Source: Gemmataceae bacterium | GTDB lineage: Bacteria; Planctomycetota; Planctomycetia; Gemmatales; Gemmataceae | Reading direction: 5' to 3' | Length of the DNA stretch: 33,955 bases | Assembly (NCBI GenBank): GCA_026419115.1 | Contig: JAOAAA010000030.1 | Location: forward strand, 1 to 33,955 | Shown: positions 3,351 to 29,659 of the stretch, one piece after another | Position numbering within the stretch: position 1 is the first letter of the stretch | Layout of the letters: every line of letters begins with the position of its first letter | Made by a program: the position numbers and the translations under genes | The notes under the pieces: generated by a model | Databases searched by the model: none | Seen by the model: only the letters and a program-made list of their open reading frames with translations | What the model was told of the DNA's origin: nothing

Positions 3351-4700
3351 TTAGCTCAGCCCCGTTAAGGCTCCTGTGCTATCCCCAAGGCGGCTCATTT
3401 TCACATCCATACGATCGAGCATCGACAACCACAGGTTGTTCAATGGGGTCTCTTTGGGGAATTTAATGTGCCGCCCCGATTTCAGGGTGCCACATCCGCC
3501 GCCGGCCAAGAGAATTGGAAGCTCATCATGATTGTGTCGATCACCATCGGAGTTACCACTGCCGTAAACAATCATGGAATGATCCAGAAGGTTCCCTTCA
3601 CCTTCAGGGATCGACTTCAGGCGTTCCAAAAGATAAGCGAACTGCTTGGCGTGGAAGCTATTAATATCGCGGATTTTGGCCAATTTCTTGGGGTCTCGCC
3701 CGTGGTGAGATAGGTCGTGATGCCCTTCGGGAACGCCAATGAATGGATAGGGTTTGTTGCTCCCTTCGTTGGCAATCACAAAGGTGCAAACCCGAGTAAT
3801 ATCGGCTTGGAAGGCCAGAACCATCAGATCGGCCATGAGACGAAGATGTTCTTCGTATTTTGCGGGGATGCCATCGGGTTTCTTGGTATCGGGGGTTTTC
3901 ACGGGAGGCAGCTTATCGGCTTTTTCAATCCGAAGTTCAATATCGCGAATGGAGGAGAAGTATTCGTCCACCTTGCGTTTGTCGGTCGATCCGAGTTTAT
4001 TGAGAAGGTCGCTCGAATCTTCGCGAACAAAGTCCAGAATGCTCTTGCGACGGGCATCGCGTTTGGCACGTTCGGCATCGTTGCCCGAACCAAAGAGTCG
4101 TTCAAAAACGAGTTTTGGATTTACTTCTTTCGGCAGAGGTTGGGTCGCACTCTTCCAAGACATGGTTGAGGAGTAGACACAAGAATAGCCGGAATCGCAA
4201 TTGCCTGCCATGGCGCCGGCTTCCCCCCCAATTTCAAGAGAGGGTAATCGGGTTTTATCGCCGATCCGTGCGGCAGCCACTTGATCGACCGAAATGCCCG
4301 CACGAATGTCGGCCCCGTCGGTTTTGCGGGGTTGGCAGCCGGTCAAAAATGCGGACAAGGCTCGGGCGTGGTCGCCTCCACCATCCCCGTTGGGGCGAGC
4401 TTTATCGGCTGTGAGATTGCTCAACACCAGCAAGCGATCTTTGAAAGGTTTGAGCGGGTTGAGGATCGCGGGGAGATCATCACCTAAAGCCCCTTCCGTT
4501 TTGGGGGTCCAATCGGCCATGTTCACGCCGTTGGGAACATAGATAAAGGCCATTCGATTGGGAACCGTTTTCCCTTGCGATTGTGCAGTGGACGAGGCCC
4601 AAGAAACAATCGGTCCCATAGATTCTAACCAAGGCAGGGCAATCGCAGTGCCGAGACCTTTTAGCATCGTTCGACGTGAGATGATTTTATTCATGTTCAT
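3351..4700 (-). CDS. DUF1552 domain protein, exported
   Basis: 449 residues. The N-terminus ISRRTMLKGLGTAIALPWLE looks like a twin-arginine signal (RR at 9-10), so the protein is probably exported folded. The remainder reads as DUF1552, a planctomycete-expanded family: FIYVPNGVNMADWTPK near the start, then GGGDHARALSAFLTGCQPRK and, near the end, SMIVYGSGNSDGDRHNHDEL. The layout of conserved His and Asp residues recalls DUF1501 and other alkaline-phosphatase-like folds, but the activity is not known. It lies 126 bp downstream of the DUF1592-type cytochrome gene on the same strand. These two families occur together in many planctomycete genomes, so they likely form one envelope unit. The ATG at 4700 (then a second at 4694) has no obvious ribosome-binding site. 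Confidence 0.92.
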   Translation of the reverse strand: MNMNKIISRRTMLKGLGTAIALPWLESMGPIVSWASSTAQSQGKTVPNRMAFIYVPNGVNMADWTPKTEGALGDDLPAILNPLKPFKDRLLVLSNLTADKARPNGDGGGDHARALSAFLTGCQPRKTDGADIRAGISVDQVAAARIGDKTRLPSLEIGGEAGAMAGNCDSGYSCVYSSTMSWKSATQPLPKEVNPKLVFERLFGSGNDAERAKRDARRKSILDFVREDSSDLLNKLGSTDKRKVDEYFSSIRDIELRIEKADKLPPVKTPDTKKPDGIPAKYEEHLRLMADLMVLAFQADITRVCTFVIANEGSNKPYPFIGVPEGHHDLSHHGRDPKKLAKIRDINSFHAKQFAYLLERLKSIPEGEGNLLDHSMIVYGSGNSDGDRHNHDELPILLAGGGCGTLKSGRHIKFPKETPLNNLWLSMLDRMDVKMSRLGDSTGALTGLS

Positions 4701-4717
4701 TAGGTGGGTTAGGTGGG
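4700..4717. repeat. Two tandem copies of TTAGGTGGG upstream of the DUF1552 gene
   Basis: Two perfect 9-bp units followed by a partial third (TTAGTGG). They sit immediately upstream of, and touch, the start codon of the minus-strand DUF1552 gene, where the mRNA would read CCCACCTAA repeatedly. This may be chance or a small slippage product. Confidence 0.5.
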
Positions 4718-4826
4718 TTAGTGGTATTATTTTATCGAATCTATCGGTTGTTGTTCGGCTAATCGCTCGGTTTTTTCTTACGCAATTCTTGGTTGTCTCC
4801 CGCTCGGGTATTGGTTACGCTTCGGA

Positions 4827-7124
4827 TTAATCGGGTGTGCCTCGCCGTTTTCGGAATGGATCACTTTGCACAATCGCTAATACCAGCGACGAAAATTTAT
4901 ACTCTCCTTTGGCGGTTTGACTTACAATCGTATCGAGGGGGCGTTTATCGTAGTATTCCAATCCCCGCCCGAGAGCATAGATCAAAAGTTTTTCGGCCAT
5001 TCCGCGAGTCACTTGTTCTTGCTGTTGTTTGAGAATCTTTTTGAGTTCTGCAGCTCCTTTGAACTTCACACCGTTAGGCAGTTCTCCAGAAGCATCGATC
5101 TCATCATCGCCATCTTTCCAACGATAGGCCCCTACGGCATCATAATTCTCGAAGGCAAAGCCGAGGGGGTCCATTTTGGCATGGCAATTGGCACAGGCCA
5201 CATTCTCGCGGTGGACCTCCATTTGCTTTCTTAAAGTTAGAGGTTTCATGCCCGCTTTGGTTTCCAATTCAGGAACATCCGGTGGGGGGGGCGGAGGCGG
5301 GGTTCCCAAAATTTGCTCAAGGACCCACTTGCCTCTTTTCACGGGGCTAGTCCGTGTTGGGTTGCTGGTCACGGTGAGGATGCTTCCTTGAGTTAAAATT
5401 CCGGCCCGAGGGCTATTTTCTGGTAATTCAACCCGAACGAATCGATCCCAAGGGATTTTCTGTCCCCCAGCGATTTTCTCCTTGGGGTTGGTACTCCAGA
5501 GATTACCTTTGGTATCCGCAATGCCATAATGCGCCGCGAGACGACTATTCAAGTAGGTATATTTCCCATCGATAATATCGAGGATGCTGCGGTCTTCCCG
5601 AATCAACTCCGTGAAGAAAAGCTCCGTTTCGGTGAGCATATCCTGTTTCAATCGCTCATCGAATTTGGGGAAAAGTTTCGCATCGGGCGTGAAGCTGGAA
5701 AGGCGTTTAAGCTGTAGCCATTGCATCACGAAGTTATCCACCAAAGCCTTGGCCTTCGGGTCTTTGAGCATGCGCTTGACTTGGGCCTCCAGATTCTGTG
5801 ACAGTTTCCCTTGTGCAGCGAGTTGGAAAAGTTCGTCATCGGGCATCGATGACCAAATGAAGTAAGAGAGTCGCGAAGCCAGTTGATATTCATCGAGCGG
5901 TTTGGGGTCGGAGCCTGCCGGACGATTATCTAATTCCACACGGAAGAGGAACTTGGGGGAAATCAGTGTGGATTGGATCGCCAGTTGCAGCGCGGTTTCG
6001 TAGCTGTCCCCCTTGGCTTGAGCGTTCTCGACCAGTTTGAGCAAGCGATTCACTTCCTCTGGGGTCGCCGGTCGCCGGAAGGCTCGGTTTAAGAAACGGG
6101 TGAGAATTTCCCGAGTTTGTTCGCTTTTGGGTTTGCTCGTATCACATTGGGTGAAATCGCGGTGGGTTTGCGGACGGGTATCACTGGGGCCATGAAGTAA
6201 AAACCACTCCACATGCAAGGTCCGTTCGGTGTTGTCTTCTTTCTTTCCAGCGTTAAGTACCGAAACCCAAATCCGGCGATCTCCTTTCTCCAGTTTCAGT
6301 TTGAATTCGTAGACCTTGGCCGATTTCTCATCGCTCACTTTGATTTCTTCTTGGGCCACTTCTTTATCATCGACTTTGATGCTCACCTTCAAAGGTTCAT
6401 TGCCCTGATATTTGGCAAAGGCTTTAAATTTGAACACATAATCCCCAGAAAGACCGAGTCGATAGGGGGTATTCAAAAAGCCCTTTTCTGCGAGGCGAAA
6501 TTTGGTCTCGGGCCAATTGCCTCCCGGTTCGAGGTAACGTCCCCCCATCCAACGGTCCGAAGGTTTTGGAAGAGGCGAGGCAATCACCCGTTGCGAGATG
6601 GCCTCGGCGGCGTTGAGATAGCGTTCCATCAGCACCGGAGAGATGCTCAAAACATCGCCGATGTTATCGAAACCGTAGCCAATATCGTCTGAAGGAAAAT
6701 CTTCGGTAGGATTAAAATCGACCCCCAAAAGGTCCCGCACGGTGTTGGCATACTCCACTTTGTTCAAGCGACGAATCGTGACCCGACCGGGATCGGGCTT
6801 GGCTGTGGCATCGTGTTTGTCGTAGATATTTTTGACTAAGCTCAGGAAGGCTTCGCTCTCTTGCACCGTGGGTCGAGGCTTATCTTTCGGGGGCATTTCT
6901 CCCGAAGCGACCACCCGCAAAACGGTGTCGAAAAGTTTTCTTTCTTTGATGAGGCTAACATCATCTTTTATCATGTGAAAAGCAATTTCGCCTCTCTTTT
7001 TTTCGGCCCCATGACAGGAGTAGCAATGCTTCGCGAGGAAGGCGACACCTTCTTTGGAAAAGTCAGCAGCTTGAGCGGGGACAGCAAGCGAGAGCAAAAG
7101 CAAACTCAGTCGAGTTCGAGACAT
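4827..7124 (-). CDS. DUF1592/DUF1588/DUF1587/DUF1595/DUF1585 protein with N-terminal cytochrome-c-like domain
   Basis: About 765 residues. Starting at ATG 7124 gives a clean Sec signal (MSRTRLSLLLLSLAVPAQA) and a GGAG site at 7133-7136; the in-frame upstream start at 7154 lacks this. Order of parts: planctomycete cytochrome c motif CYSCH (34-38) with distal MPPK; DUF1587 from VTIRRLNKVEYANTVRDLLG; a middle region probably adopting a carbohydrate-binding-like fold (about 185-315); DUF1595 (LNRAFRRPATPEEV); DUF1592 (YQLASRLSYFIWSSMPDDEL); DUF1588 with RAGILTQGSILTVTSNPTRT and a second CxxCH, CANCH near 644-648; and DUF1585 at the C-terminus. Seven consecutive prolines precede DVPELE. The protein is periplasmic and probably binds two haems. 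It is first in a likely two-gene unit with the DUF1552 gene. The substrate is unknown; roles in extracellular polymer degradation or electron transfer have been suggested for the family. Confidence 0.94.
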   Translation of the reverse strand: MSRTRLSLLLLSLAVPAQAADFSKEGVAFLAKHCYSCHGAEKKRGEIAFHMIKDDVSLIKERKLFDTVLRVVASGEMPPKDKPRPTVQESEAFLSLVKNIYDKHDATAKPDPGRVTIRRLNKVEYANTVRDLLGVDFNPTEDFPSDDIGYGFDNIGDVLSISPVLMERYLNAAEAISQRVIASPLPKPSDRWMGGRYLEPGGNWPETKFRLAEKGFLNTPYRLGLSGDYVFKFKAFAKYQGNEPLKVSIKVDDKEVAQEEIKVSDEKSAKVYEFKLKLEKGDRRIWVSVLNAGKKEDNTERTLHVEWFLLHGPSDTRPQTHRDFTQCDTSKPKSEQTREILTRFLNRAFRRPATPEEVNRLLKLVENAQAKGDSYETALQLAIQSTLISPKFLFRVELDNRPAGSDPKPLDEYQLASRLSYFIWSSMPDDELFQLAAQGKLSQNLEAQVKRMLKDPKAKALVDNFVMQWLQLKRLSSFTPDAKLFPKFDERLKQDMLTETELFFTELIREDRSILDIIDGKYTYLNSRLAAHYGIADTKGNLWSTNPKEKIAGGQKIPWDRFVRVELPENSPRAGILTQGSILTVTSNPTRTSPVKRGKWVLEQILGTPPPPPPPDVPELETKAGMKPLTLRKQMEVHRENVACANCHAKMDPLGFAFENYDAVGAYRWKDGDDEIDASGELPNGVKFKGAAELKKILKQQQEQVTRGMAEKLLIYALGRGLEYYDKRPLDTIVSQTAKGEYKFSSLVLAIVQSDPFRKRRGTPD

Positions 7125-7284
7125 TCGATCCACTCCAGAAACGAGATTGGGCAAGAGAATGGGCCACTCTCAAGGTAGGAGAGTTATTATGAATATTTTA
7201 GCCCATGAAAGAAGGCCAAGGCGAGCAAGGTCCCGAGATTTCTGGTCATACGGTTGAGCAGGGTCTGGCAAATTTTTCAGGCAG

Positions 7285-19906: not shown

Positions 19907-20941
19907 TTAGTTTGGAACAAGCCCGTCGTTGGCGGCTTGCAGGATCGTCCAGTTGCGGCGGCTGATCGAATCGCGGATGAATTGAACCGAAGCATCCCCC
20001 ATGCAGGCTTGAACCCCACTGGTGTGACGGCTACGGGATTGAGCTTGCCAGTTGGCACAGCTGAACCAAGCACCCATTCCCATATTGGGATTGTCAGCGG
20101 GCATGAAGATGTCATCGCAATAACGGAATTTGGCGTTCGTACCATCGTTGGGGCCGGAGCAATCGCCCACCGCGTTTCCACCGGACACGCTCGCGCCGGG
20201 TTGACCCAAGGCCCAAGACCCTCGGCGGTCGTTGGCATCGAAACCCACGCGGATTTCGGTGATCATGATAGTGTTGGAAGAACCATCGGGGATGTTGGCA
20301 ATGGTCATCCCACCGCCTCCCACTTCACTCGAGGGCCAGCTGACGCCCGTAACAGCTCGACCAATGTCATCGGCCCAAGAACCTTGACCATTGAAGACTT
20401 GGTTCCAGAATCCGCCAGGCCCTGCGTTGATGGCGTAGTTTCCGCGAGCCCAGTTACCCGCGAATGTGTTCCAACCGTTGAAGGGGACCGCATGACCGGT
20501 GTCAGCGGGGCACTCGAAGGTTTTGATTCGGGTCGCTCGGACGTTCAGCCACGAGGTGTTACCGGTGGTTCGCCATAAGTTCGCTTGACTTAAGTTGGCC
20601 AGAGCTTCTTGTTCGATGAACGGCAGAATCAACACGGCCCAGTTCGGCCCCATGGCGACCGAGTTCCAAGCAGGGATACCCAAACGGGAGTAGTCCGTAA
20701 CAGCCATGGCTTGCACGGCAGGGGGAAGTCGGCCATCACCACTATCGGCGTAGTTGTGCATGGCCAATCCCAGTTGTTTGAGGTTGTTCGCACAGGTTGT
20801 TTTGTTTGCAGCAGCACGGACCTTTTGCACTGCGGGTAACAACAACCCGATCAGGATAGCGATAATCGCTATGACGACTAACAGTTCAATCAGGGTGAAT
20901 CCACGTCGATTCCCCTTGCGATGGGAGAGATAAGACAACAT
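19907..20941 (-). CDS. DUF1559 protein with prepilin-type N-terminus
   Basis: 344 residues from ATG 20941; GGAG sits correctly before it, while the TTG four codons upstream would lie inside this site. The leader [14 protein letters not shown] is followed by [20 protein letters not shown], a class III prepilin signal with cleavage after Gly14 and Glu at mature position 5. The DUF1559 body follows: [20 protein letters not shown], then [20 protein letters not shown] and the late [14 protein letters not shown]. The C-terminus has [13 protein letters not shown], a variant of the H-X9-DG signature (Asp-Ala here). These proteins are hugely expanded in planctomycetes, are exported as type II/IV pseudopilins and may be surface or matrix fibres. 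Long A/T-rich leader DNA upstream suggests regulated expression. Confidence 0.95.
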
Positions 20942-21566
20942 ATGTTTCTCCAATAGAAATGAAGGAGATTTAATGAATAATTACTCTTTTAACCAATTCA
21001 TCGCATCTTGTCCAGACTAATCTTGAGAATTTTTTCATTTTTTTAATATTTCTTAACTCAGTTACTCTTGGATCGAACGCAAAAATGGCCCAAATATCGT
21101 ACTCTTTTCGAGACTTTCTCGAATTTTAAGAACTCAATTCAAAAGAATCTCATTTATGAAAATTTTCAGAATTTGGAGATGGGATTGCTGCCCAAAATTC
21201 ATGAACTGGAAATAAAATCTCCATAATTCTGACCTAACATCCTTTCTCATTGAAAGTTATGAGCTGGAGTAATGTGCAGTTCTTGCTGATTTTACTTACT
21301 AACACCGGCTCAATCGTTGCTCTGGCACCTGCACTACTGGTAGAATGTATGTGTTTGTGGCAATAATTGACTTGTTTACTTGGCTCGCTGAAATAACCAA
21401 ACCCAAAATTGAAAAGCGAATCCTTTTTCATTACGTATCCGTTTCTAATCTTTTGTTATGGTGAGAATCGGTTTTTAAATTAATTCTCATTAAAATATCT
21501 TAAAATGTCATCAATCGGGTAATTCGGCGAAAGTGTTAGGATGATCGATTTCTGAAGCAATTCTCA
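20942..21566. other. A/T-rich leader region upstream of the DUF1559 gene
   Basis: About 625 bp without a supported gene and clearly richer in A+T than its surroundings. It contains the inverted repeat TTCGAGA-CTT-TCTCGAA (21107-21123), followed by TTTTAAG, which may be an operator or a weak terminator. AATTCTCATTAAA occurs twice (21482-21494 and 21559-21571, the second touching the stop of the E1 beta gene). A 65-codon minus-strand frame at 21234-21431 has no ribosome-binding site or recognisable motif. Confidence 0.55.
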
Positions 21567-24316: not shown

Positions 24317-24604
24317 GTGAGAACCCCAAATGCGACTCGATTGCGAGAGCAAGTACGAGACGAATTTTTTCAGATTAACCCAAACAGCAGAACAACACAA
24401 CGAAAAAACAACGCTTCATCTTTCATGTTTGGCTTTAGGTTCATGCGGTGCGGTCGATTTGCTTGTCAAAGTGATTGGAGCACGATAGGCTAAATTTATC
24501 TCTTTCATAATTTTTGCCTAATGTCTCCCAATCTCACTCAGGGGGATATGGCAAATTCAAACGCACGCTCACAGAAAGCGTGTTTATTTCCCAAGGTGAT
24601 GTTT

Positions 24605-26209
24605 ATGTTCGCTCGACATTTCCAAGTTCACTCATCGGCGTGGTTGGTGTTGCTGATTGTAACGCTGTCCACTCAAGCTCAAACCCCCAAAGATTCTCCT
24701 ATCCCCGAGAAGGTGCTTAGTGCTTGGAAAGGTGCGGGAGCTACCTTCGGCTGGCAAGGATGGGATCAGTTCGGCACACTGAAATTTCAGGAATCAAAGG
24801 AAGGGCTGCGGGATGCGTTGCCAGCATTTCGGTTTCGCGAGTGGAATGCGGCTAATACGTCGAAGGTCAGGGAGTTGCCCGATGTGGGGGTCCCCTTTGG
24901 ATTGAACGTGAGCTACACCCGAATAACGGATGCAGGATTGAAGGAATTAGCTGGACTAAAAAATCTCACTTCGCTTTCTCTCGGCGGCCCCCAAGTGACG
25001 GATGCGGTAGTAAAGGAACTGGCCGGTTTGAAAAGCCTCACTTCGCTCGACTTGTGGAACACTCAAGTGACCGATGAGGGACTGAAGGAATTGGCCGGTT
25101 TGAAAAGCCTCACTTCGCTCGACTTGTGGAACACTCAAGTGACCGATGAGGGACTGAAGGAACTGGCTAGTCTGAAAAACCTCACTTCGCTCTACCTCGG
25201 CAAGACCCAAGTAACGGATGCAGGACTGAAGGAACTGGTCAGGTTGAAAAACCTCACTTCGCTCTACCTCGGCAAGACCCAAGTGACGGATACGGGATTG
25301 AAGGAACTGGCCGAGCTAAAAAAACTCACCTCACTCTACTTGAACGAGACCAAAGTGACCGGTGTCGGATTGAAGGAATTAGCTGGACTAAAAAATCTCA
25401 CTTCGCTCAACTTGAGCTATACCCTCATGACGGATGCGGGATTGAAGGAACTAGCTAGTCTGAAAAACCTCACCAAACTCTCCTTGAACGAGACCGAAGT
25501 GACCGGTGTGGGACTGAAGGAACTGGCTGGGCTGAAAAACCTCACAACGCTCGACCTAACCAAGACTCAAGTGACGGATGAGGGACTGAAGGAGCTAGCC
25601 GAGCTGAAAAACCTTACCAAACTCACTCTGTATGGCACTCGAATCACGGATGCAGGCTTGAAGGAATTGGCGGGATTGAAAAAACTCACTTCGCTCAACT
25701 TGTGGAACACCGAAGTCACCGATGAGGGATTGAAGGAATTGGCTGGGCTGAAAAACCTTACCAAACTCACTCTGTATGGCACTCGAATCACGGATGCAGG
25801 ATTGAAGGAACTGGCTGGATTGAAAAAACTGACCTTGATCGACCTGTCTGACCGCCAAATCACGGATCGTGCTTTAGCGATGTTGCGGGAAGTTGATTTG
25901 CTGCATGCTTTGGACCGGACCACGGGAATTGGCAATCAACGGCCTATGAAAGCCGAGGATGTTATCTCGCTCGATCTAAGGAGCACTGAGGTATCGGACT
26001 CGGGATTGAAGGAATTAGCTGGACTAAAAAATCTCACGTCGCTCAACTTGAGCTATACCCTCGTGACGGATGCAGGCTTGAAGGAACTGGCTGGATTGAA
26101 AAACCTCACGACGCTCGATCTGAGCGACACCCAAGTAACAGACGAAGGACTGAAGGAACTGCAAAAGGCGTTGCCCAAATGTCGAATTATTCGAGAATTC
26201 CGCCGTTGA
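24605..26209 (+). CDS. Exported leucine-rich-repeat protein
   Basis: About 534 residues. ATG 24605 is preferred: AAGGTG lies six bases upstream and the result is a normal Sec signal (FARHFQVHSSAWLVLLIVTL then STQAQ). In-frame ATGs at 24599 and 24548 and the frame start at 24521 give an overlong N-terminus. After a roughly 106-residue lead-in the protein is an array of 24-residue LRRs with consensus VTDAGLKELAGLKNLTSLDL plus four residues: 13 in a row, one irregular 44-residue segment, then three more, the last degenerate as a C-terminal cap. Thr/Asp caps and LKxL spacing fit the bacterial ITDAGL-type LRR common in planctomycetes. It should form a curved solenoid outside the cytoplasm for protein or glycan binding. 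No enzymatic domain is present. Confidence 0.92.
   Translation: MFARHFQVHSSAWLVLLIVTLSTQAQTPKDSPIPEKVLSAWKGAGATFGWQGWDQFGTLKFQESKEGLRDALPAFRFREWNAANTSKVRELPDVGVPFGLNVSYTRITDAGLKELAGLKNLTSLSLGGPQVTDAVVKELAGLKSLTSLDLWNTQVTDEGLKELAGLKSLTSLDLWNTQVTDEGLKELASLKNLTSLYLGKTQVTDAGLKELVRLKNLTSLYLGKTQVTDTGLKELAELKKLTSLYLNETKVTGVGLKELAGLKNLTSLNLSYTLMTDAGLKELASLKNLTKLSLNETEVTGVGLKELAGLKNLTTLDLTKTQVTDEGLKELAELKNLTKLTLYGTRITDAGLKELAGLKKLTSLNLWNTEVTDEGLKELAGLKNLTKLTLYGTRITDAGLKELAGLKKLTLIDLSDRQITDRALAMLREVDLLHALDRTTGIGNQRPMKAEDVISLDLRSTEVSDSGLKELAGLKNLTSLNLSYTLVTDAGLKELAGLKNLTTLDLSDTQVTDEGLKELQKALPKCRIIREFRR
24923..26206 (+). repeat. Tandem 72-bp repeats encoding the LRR array
   Basis: Thirteen uninterrupted 72-bp units (24923-25858), a 132-bp irregular unit (25859-25990) and three more units. 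Units 2 and 3 are almost identical at the DNA level, and a block covering units 10-11 is repeated by units 12-13 with few changes. This pattern points to recent duplication within the gene. Confidence 0.9.
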
Positions 26210-27687: not shown

Positions 27688-27785
27688 ATTTTTTACCCCG
27701 AACATGTGGGAAAGTTGGGAATGCTGATGGGGAAAAATCGCTTATCCCGAAAAGGAAGGTTGACCCGATGGGTCGGAGTGAGGGG

Positions 27786-27864
27786 ATTTCGTAACAGGGA
27801 TGGGGTTAGGGCATTTCGTAGATGAGTAGATTTCGTAACAGGGATGGGGTTAGGGCATTTCGTA
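27786..27864. repeat. Perfect 35-bp direct repeat spanning the 3' end of the anti-sigma gene
   Basis: Copies at 27786-27820 and 27830-27864, period 44, begin ATTTCGTAACAGGGATGGGG and end GGTTAGGGCATTTCGTA. The right copy contains the stop codon and final codons (coding ...YEMP) of the minus-strand gene; the left copy repeats them beyond the stop. Confidence 0.9.
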
Positions 27865-28809
27865 ACCGCGACCCAAAACGGAATCTTCTCGTCGTAGCCC
27901 CGCACCCACTTTGCCACGTTCATTCCGAAAGATATGATCGTTCTCGATGCCCACATTGGCATGAGTGCAGAAGCGAACTTGTCCATTCGCAAAGAGAACA
28001 TTTTGCCCCCCGCGATGATTGATCGGTTTGGTTTCTTCCCCTTTTCTTCGTGGGGCATCGGCCAAGAGGGGGATATAATCTTGGTCGGGATCGAGATAGC
28101 TAAAGCCACACAAAGTGCCGAGTTCATCACGGTAGCCTAGGGTGTAACTGTAGTTGCCCAAAGAAAGGCCATGAGCCTGATCGTTACAGCTTAACCGAGT
28201 ATGTGTCAAATAGCCCTGATCGCGAAGGGTTTGAATGGCAGATTCTGCGGTTTGAAGTTCCGCGACTTTGGGGAAATTACCCTCATTATCATCGGCATAT
28301 TGTACCAAGGCCGAGTAAACTTGACGAAGACTATCGGCACAGGCAGTTTGCCGAGCATGCGAACGAAGGGTCGCCAAAAACGGGAGACCGATTCCCAAGA
28401 CCAGAACCAAAGAGACGGCAATGGCAAACACATTTCTTCGGGAGTTGCTGCTGGAATCGACAGCGAGTTCGCGAGCCATCACCGGATAGACAGGTGGTTC
28501 ATTCGACGTAGCTACCGCAGCCGGTTGGGACTCGCTTGGTGCGTGACATTCAATCGGAGGGACTAACCGTTCTGCCTGAACAATCCATTCTGCGACTCGT
28601 CCAATGGTATTGGCAACCAGTTGAGGTGGAAGCGGTTCGTTGGGGTCATCTTGATCGCTAGCCAGCGGTGCCAAGGCCGAGCGGATCAGGTCCAAGGTTC
28701 GTTGCGCTTGCGGGGATTCGGCCAATAAAATTTCGGTCGTTTGAGTATCTTGAGTCGGCAAGGCCTTGAGAGCGTAACCGAGTAACTTTTCTTCTTGTAA
28801 GTAATCCAT
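27850..28809 (-). CDS. Membrane anti-sigma factor candidate with pilin-like outer domain
   Basis: 319 residues. The first 55 (LLGYALKALPTQDTQTTEIL, LAESPQAQRTLDLIRSALAP) read like a zinc-less RskA-type anti-sigma N-terminus. A linker rich in Pro and Glu leads to one membrane helix, VFAIAVSLVLVLGIGLPFLA (127-146). The outer part resembles a DUF1559/type II pseudopilin: RSHARQTACADSLRQVYSAL continues into VQYADDNEGNFP, and the C-terminus has H265-X9-N275-G276, a variant of H-X9-DG. The gene begins 52 bp after the ECF sigma gene on the same strand, the usual sigma/anti-sigma order. It is thus probably a membrane sensor that holds the sigma factor. The pilin resemblance is clear by eye; the anti-sigma role is inferred from position and N-terminus. 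Confidence 0.75.
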   Translation of the reverse strand: MDYLQEEKLLGYALKALPTQDTQTTEILLAESPQAQRTLDLIRSALAPLASDQDDPNEPLPPQLVANTIGRVAEWIVQAERLVPPIECHAPSESQPAAVATSNEPPVYPVMARELAVDSSSNSRRNVFAIAVSLVLVLGIGLPFLATLRSHARQTACADSLRQVYSALVQYADDNEGNFPKVAELQTAESAIQTLRDQGYLTHTRLSCNDQAHGLSLGNYSYTLGYRDELGTLCGFSYLDPDQDYIPLLADAPRRKGEETKPINHRGGQNVLFANGQVRFCTHANVGIENDHIFRNERGKVGAGLRREDSVLGRGYEMP

Positions 28810-28861
28810 GATGAAACCCCTATCTCAAGGGTCCACGAATCGGGGGGCGAAAAATCGGAGA

Positions 28862-29476
28862 TTATAACTCTGGAACAGAACCAACTAGGGACCAACTTTC
28901 GTGTAATTTTGCAAGGGCCGTATGTAATCGCGATTTTACCGTTCCAAGGGGGATATCCAGAATATCGGCAATATCCTGATATTTCAAGCCCTGATAGTAG
29001 GCCAAAATCACCACCACCCTTAAAAACTCGGGGAGGCGGTCTACTGTAGCTCGGACCAAGGTTCGCAACTCGCTGAGGTCCGCGTGTTCGAGAGGATTGG
29101 TCTCTTTCGATTCGAGTAACTCACCCAAGCCACGACGTTCCCCCTCTTGATTTTCGACCTCTGCCGATTCGATACTCACCGTCGCGCGTCGGCCGACCCG
29201 TCGCATGGCATCGATCGCTTGGTTGGTCGCGATGGCATAAATCCAAGGGCGTGCTGGTCTCCCTTTTTCGTATTGGTTAATTTTGGCGTATAAGGCAACA
29301 AAGGTCAGTTGGAAAATGTCCTCTGCCAAATGCTCATCGTTGACGTAACGCCGAAGATAACCGAATAACTCCCGCTGGTATCGACGAACGAGCGTACCCA
29401 TTGCTTCTTTGTACCCTTCTCGGAGTAGCAGCAAGAGTTCTTCGTCGGTTCGTCTCGCTAAAGGATCGTTAGACAC
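28862..29476 (-). CDS. ECF (sigma-70 group 4) RNA polymerase sigma factor
   Basis: 204 residues. Region 2 (about 24-95) holds AMGTLVRRYQRELFGYLRRY, DEHLAEDIFQLTFVALYAKI and the -10-recognition helix RPWIYAIATNQAIDAMRR. Region 4 (about 143-192) has LPEFLRVVVILAYYQGLKYQ, DIADILDIPLGTVKSRLH, a helix-turn-helix for -35 contact. A 45-residue acidic linker separates them. It directs RNA polymerase to its own regulon and is probably held inactive by the membrane protein encoded just downstream. It is divergent from the DUF1501 gene with 235 bp between, so that gene pair is a candidate target. The exact ECF group needs a profile search. Confidence 0.94.
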   Translation of the reverse strand: MSNDPLARRTDEELLLLLREGYKEAMGTLVRRYQRELFGYLRRYVNDEHLAEDIFQLTFVALYAKINQYEKGRPARPWIYAIATNQAIDAMRRVGRRATVSIESAEVENQEGERRGLGELLESKETNPLEHADLSELRTLVRATVDRLPEFLRVVVILAYYQGLKYQDIADILDIPLGTVKSRLHTALAKLHESWSLVGSVPEL

Positions 29477-29659
29477 TGTTCACACTTGAATTACGTTACG
29501 GGTCACGAGAAGGTTCATGGCCTCATCATAGGAGCCTATCACAAAAGATAGATACCACGGCTTTCTTTGACGATGCTTTTTTACGAAATCCACGACCAAC
29601 AAAGGGTTGGAGGTTGCTATCCTCTCATGTTTTGTTAGCAAATGCTCGCTCATTTTTTG

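Follow-up and report, generated by a model that had tools for sequence, protein, structure and literature searches.

An ECF sigma factor paired with a predicted membrane anti-sigma factor bearing a pilin-type outer domain in Planctomycetota

Introduction

The closest described counterparts of the locus reported here are the RskA/SigK and RslA/SigL pairs of Mycobacterium tuberculosis, in which an ECF sigma gene adjoins the gene of a single-pass anti-sigma factor. The class I anti-sigma layout comprises a three-helix bundle and a separate fourth helix, and RskA requires no zinc (PMC7406223). RpoE/RseA of Escherichia coli is also a membrane class I anti-sigma system, and htrA/degP is the classic RpoE target (PMC8103513). 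Related to the present locus in another way are the DUF1559 proteins, which form a large family in planctomycetes and whose function is unknown (PMC10632474, PMC8567305, PMC2754498). In the Tuwongella proteome, 25 of 91 DUF1559/SBP_bac_10 prepilin-like proteins have been detected (PMC8567305).

Here we describe a locus from a Gemmataceae bacterium (assembly GCA_026419115.1, contig JAOAAA010000030.1), analysed within a stretch of 33,955 nucleotides referred to as the window. Like the mycobacterial pairs, it has an ECF sigma gene beside the gene of a single-pass protein whose inner part is modelled as a three-helix bundle plus helix 4. Unlike RskA and RslA, to which its sequence similarity is marginal, this partner protein has a pilin/DUF1559-type outer domain. 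With RpoE/RseA it would share a membrane class I anti-sigma factor and an HtrA/DegP-type protease among the predicted targets, although the sensor domain is different and the targets here are predicted from promoter motifs. The partner resembles planctomycete DUF1559/SBP_bac_10 prepilin-like proteins in its TM helix, an alpha-1 helix with C-x-NNL, a second cysteine and a similar C-terminal motif (H-X9-DG in those proteins, H-X9-NG in the window partner), but it has lost their cleavage site, carries a cytoplasmic anti-sigma domain in place of the short leader, and is encoded beside a sigma gene. No description of this anti-sigma/pilin architecture was found in the literature searched, which extended to neither the main ECF classification (Casas-Pastor 2021) nor Jogler 2012. 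We consider it probable that the ECF sigma factor encoded here drives its own expression and is kept in check by a class I anti-sigma factor anchored in the membrane, whose sensor is a decayed DUF1559/type II pseudopilin domain, and that the two form an RpoE/RseA-like envelope-stress circuit of Planctomycetota.

The sigma gene and its partner

The pair consists of two genes:

28862..29476, minus strand: ECF sigma factor, 204 aa (Pfam Sigma70_r2, 8.3e-18, and Sigma70_r4_2, 1.2e-14; NCBIfam TIGR02937, 1.9e-29)
27850..28809, minus strand: predicted membrane anti-sigma factor with a pilin-type outer domain, 319 aa, single-pass (from profiles, AlphaFold (AF2) and its position beside the sigma gene, in the same direction, at loci from across the phylum)

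The sigma gene is followed, after a gap of 52 bp, by the partner gene, and both open reading frames and the gap lie exactly where an earlier sequence-only reading of this DNA had placed them. The same reading had called the first product an ECF sigma factor, and the Pfam matches agree: the protein has regions 2 and 4 only (Sigma70_r2 at residues 29-96, Sigma70_r4_2 at residues 140-191), which is the region content of an ECF factor. Two 42-nt direct repeats, 95% identical and 44 nt apart (27779-27864), extend over the 3' end of the partner gene and the sequence just downstream.

Conservation of the pair across Planctomycetota

The best sigma matches in 59 genomes, drawn from the same family, order and class, were compared with matches to the partner. 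In 48 of the 49 relatives whose loci were fetched, the partner adjoins the sigma gene on the same strand, which is far beyond chance and constitutes the co-encoding with an ECF sigma gene that marks class I anti-sigma factors (ASDI). The sequence-only reading had depended on homologous membrane proteins lying beside sigma genes in relatives, and so they do. A search with an alignment of the sigma proteins gave 80 named planctomycete records with the best sigma matches. In about 74 of these, among them Singulisphaera acidiphila and many Phycisphaerae, the partner gene adjoins the sigma gene; the count takes in L195 and L246, two loci at which a long ORF with a misplaced start had hidden the partner.

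At strict thresholds, the partner was found in 108 and the sigma factor in 112 of 149 genomes of the class. The partner profile had no match in any sampled genome of one family of the class (f4), and in the genomes listed for that family the sigma factor is missing too in all but one (G257). Inspection by eye showed both genes present but apart in two genomes, on separate contigs (G176) or about 5 kb from each other (G279). Outside the class, a profile search of the whole phylum returned mostly pilin-only proteins. Sigma relatives in Adhaeretor mobilis (L214), in Aporhodopirellula aestuarii (L239) and at a further locus (L122) have no recognisable adjacent partner.

The inner anti-sigma-like domain

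The partner protein is divided as follows:

28567..28809, minus strand: putative class I anti-sigma domain, residues 1-81, a three-helix bundle and helix 4 (64-81), no zinc motif (AF2; profile A4)
28456..28566, minus strand: disordered linker, residues 82-118 (pLDDT low, 49-61, over most of the linker)
28288..28455, minus strand: TM segment running into a pilin alpha-1 helix, residues 119-174 (hhalign, PDB profile matches, AF2)
27853..28287, minus strand: outer globular domain, residues 175-319, with C208 and H265-X9-N275G276 (AF2 and alignment)

The AlphaFold model of the partner (mean pLDDT 86.5) has helices at residues 3-13, 19-31 and 33-50 and a fourth at 64-81, then the linker and a 56-residue helix. 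Profiles of the inner and outer parts were built from 40-43 relatives. When the N-terminal profile (A4) was compared with 177,635 PDB sequences, the top two matches were RskA (4nqw, E 0.0025) and RslA (3hug, E 0.0031); these E-values are modest, but no other PDB sequence came near. An NCBIfam anti-sigma model matches 42 of 43 relatives, with no listed member above a Pfam or NCBIfam cut-off for the anti-sigma domain. The window partner by itself matches the anti-sigma family NF052375 (4.9e-6) and DUF1559 (0.0015), both weakly and under the curated cut-offs; the case for both homologies comes from alignments of relatives. A phmmer search of the single N-terminus against the PDB gave chance matches only, and the anti-sigma profile went undetected in many Phycisphaerae partners.

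The ZAS zinc motif H-x3-C-x2-C occurs in none of the 43 partners, which places them outside the zinc-binding anti-sigma factors. The inner part is, by profile and model, of class I anti-sigma layout without the zinc motif, and it is predicted to bind and inhibit the sigma factor. The sequence-only reading had staked itself on an anti-sigma-like N-terminus of 60 residues. The resemblance holds (42/43 relatives, the AF2 helices, RskA and RslA), whereas the domain is larger than proposed and takes in residues 1-81. Partners at four loci (L208, L218, L220 and L245) have a clear anti-sigma profile but match the pilins only weakly, which suggests that their outer domain has diverged or been exchanged.

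The outer pilin-type domain

When the exported part was modelled alone, AF2 gave a pLDDT of 92.8 and a pTM of 0.86. All six PDB matches of the outer-part profile are type IV pilins or GspG, and hhalign against 18 DUF1559 prepilins encoded in this genome gave a probability of 98.6% (E 6e-16) over the TM and alpha-1 region. Foldseek searches of the PDB, with either the complete model or the outer domain as query, found nothing significant, and the outer fold therefore rests on the sequence profiles and AF2. Pfam DUF1559 matches 24/43 relatives. C157 is present in all 43 and C208 in 42, and these two correspond to the two conserved cysteines of the genome's own DUF1559 pilins. The C-terminal motif, H-X9-NG in the window protein, takes the form H-X9-[DNG][GL] in 16 and H-X10-[DNG][GL] in 30 of the 43 relatives, two counts that may overlap; an H-X9-DG model matches 10/43. 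The sequence-only reading had correctly described the helix ARQTACADSLRQVYSAL, the cysteines and H265-X9-N275G276. C234 is not conserved. The fusion of an anti-sigma part to a pilin-like part that it proposed is likewise borne out, the inner profile leading to RskA and RslA and the outer one to type IV pilins or GspG only.

Pilin position 5 is N126 in the window protein, and across the 43 relatives it is D in 32, N in 6 and E in 2. At the prepilin peptidase site, Gly is found at -1 in 4/43, Ala in 2/43 and Glu 5 in 2/43, so that the site is absent as a rule, while the DUF1559 pilins of the same genome retain G/A-FTLIE. With the site lost, the inner and outer halves should stay joined, and the outer part looks like a pilin no longer cleavable from the inner domain. 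A canonical DUF1559 prepilin (N_methyl and SBP_bac_10) is encoded at 19907-20953 (minus strand) on the same contig, 7 kb from the pair.

The predicted promoter and candidate targets

Upstream of the sigma gene lies a further feature:

29492-29516, minus strand: predicted autoregulatory ECF promoter, GAACC-N16-CGTA (-35 at 29512-29516, -10 at 29492-29495)

Among 50 sigma genes, 34 have GAACC-N16-CGTA in the preceding 280 bp; in three shuffles of these regions, no pattern of this kind occurred more than 4 times. The site is close to the sigma start codon, and the bases between GAACC and CGTA are not conserved; the motif is mostly absent in Phycisphaerae. In the window, the site is the single match in 34 kb and is directed at the sigma gene.

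Strict motif sites collected in this genome and ten relatives numbered 125. Of these, 30 lay between genes and ahead of an ORF, and several gene families turned up repeatedly. Candidate targets were tested for GAAC[CTA]-N16-CGTA within 320 bp upstream, using orthologues from 45 relatives, with 2/277 background genes having a site. An ABC-2 permease (ABC2_membrane) has the site in 11/18 genomes (p 8e-14), and in 6/10 of those outside the discovery set (p 8e-9). For an HtrA/DegP-like protease (Trypsin_2 and PDZ), the numbers are 7/29 (p 1e-6) and 4/21 (p 2.5e-4), respectively. DUF58 genes, with a site in 3 discovery genomes but 0/12 others, were dropped. Genome-wide counts of the strict motif showed no excess over a reversed-pattern control, and the motif may also serve other ECF factors of these genomes. 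The recurrence of sites at the sigma factor's own operon, the ABC-2 permease and the HtrA-type protease favours an envelope-stress role, and is compatible with sensing of pilin or secretion traffic; the sequence-only reading had suggested a surface or secretion-state sensor.

In the own genome, strict sites also lie just upstream of genes for a ZnuA-type lipoprotein, an ArsP_1 permease and a small lipoprotein, and of a DUF58 gene (L278-L281). The HtrA-like match in genome G000 (G000:C300:12566-13420, L432) has an in-frame internal TGA and a promoter-like site upstream, and may represent a frameshift or assembly error.

A probable envelope-stress circuit

Sequence comparison shows a conserved pairing, two homologies, a lost prepilin cleavage site, a conserved promoter and recurrent target sites. 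At rest, inner helices 1-4 would sequester the sigma factor. The pilin-type domain would perceive disturbance of the envelope, the likeliest cue being pilin-like or secreted proteins that have misfolded or been mislocalised, and the sigma factor would then be released, probably by regulated proteolysis or else by a conformational change. Once freed, it would transcribe its own operon, the ABC-2-type transporter permease gene and the HtrA/DegP-like protease gene, in a positive loop. If this is correct, an envelope-stress circuit with a sensor made from a pilin is common to most Planctomycetota, and the very large DUF1559 pilin-like family may have a regulatory link. The named promoter and candidate targets make the circuit testable in cultured strains.

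More tentatively, the pilin-derived sensor could dock onto the type II secretion or type IV pilus machinery, or onto its pilins, and read pilin traffic; we regard this as possible and somewhat doubtful. Were it true, planctomycetes would monitor the DUF1559 family through an unprocessable, pilin-shaped anti-sigma factor, and their response would consist of an HtrA-type protease together with an ABC transporter.

Alternative explanations

Other explanations of the partner concern one or other of its halves. It might not inhibit the sigma factor at all and be simply a co-transcribed envelope protein, with the sigma factor regulated otherwise. The divergence of the anti-sigma domain, in which no listed member passes a Pfam or NCBIfam cut-off, and its escape from the profile in many Phycisphaerae speak for such an explanation, but the top profile matches to RskA and RslA, the 3+1 helix model and the anti-sigma model matches in 42/43 relatives make it unlikely. 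Conversely, the partner might be an ordinary anti-sigma factor whose likeness to pilins is due only to a TM segment running into an amphipathic helix, as the lack of a significant pilin structure in Foldseek and the restriction of the hhalign match to the first 64 columns would allow. Against this, the position-5 acid, helix cysteine, C-x-NNL, second cysteine and C-terminal H-X9/10-[DG]G follow one another as they do in DUF1559, and 10/43 relatives match the H-X9-DG model; we judge this explanation very unlikely.

The partner could also act as a prepilin-peptidase switch, with PilD/GspO cleaving it before the TM helix and thereby freeing the anti-sigma part or activating the sigma factor. The TM helix is of pilin type, Asp or Glu stands at position 5 in 34/43 relatives and T2SS/T4P-type ATPases are present in the genome; yet Gly at -1 in 4/43 only and arginines at positions 2-3 in most relatives, in which the genome's own pilins differ, leave such a switch quite unlikely. 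As for what the pair controls, the sequence-only reading had offered the DUF1501/cytochrome-WD40 operon as a candidate target. This operon is the divergent neighbour of the pair in this one genome, but in relatives its genes do not accompany the pair, apart from isolated weak matches, and no motif in the window points at it, the sole ECF-type site facing the sigma gene. The proposal is not upheld and we consider it extremely improbable. The glutamate dehydrogenase neighbour is likewise not conserved at the loci of relatives.

Elsewhere in the window, a 562-aa leucine-rich-repeat protein is encoded at 24521-26209 (plus strand), upstream of the glutamate dehydrogenase gene, and at 3351-7154 (minus strand) a DUF1552 gene adjoins a planctomycete cytochrome-type gene with DUF1592/1588/1587/1585/1595.
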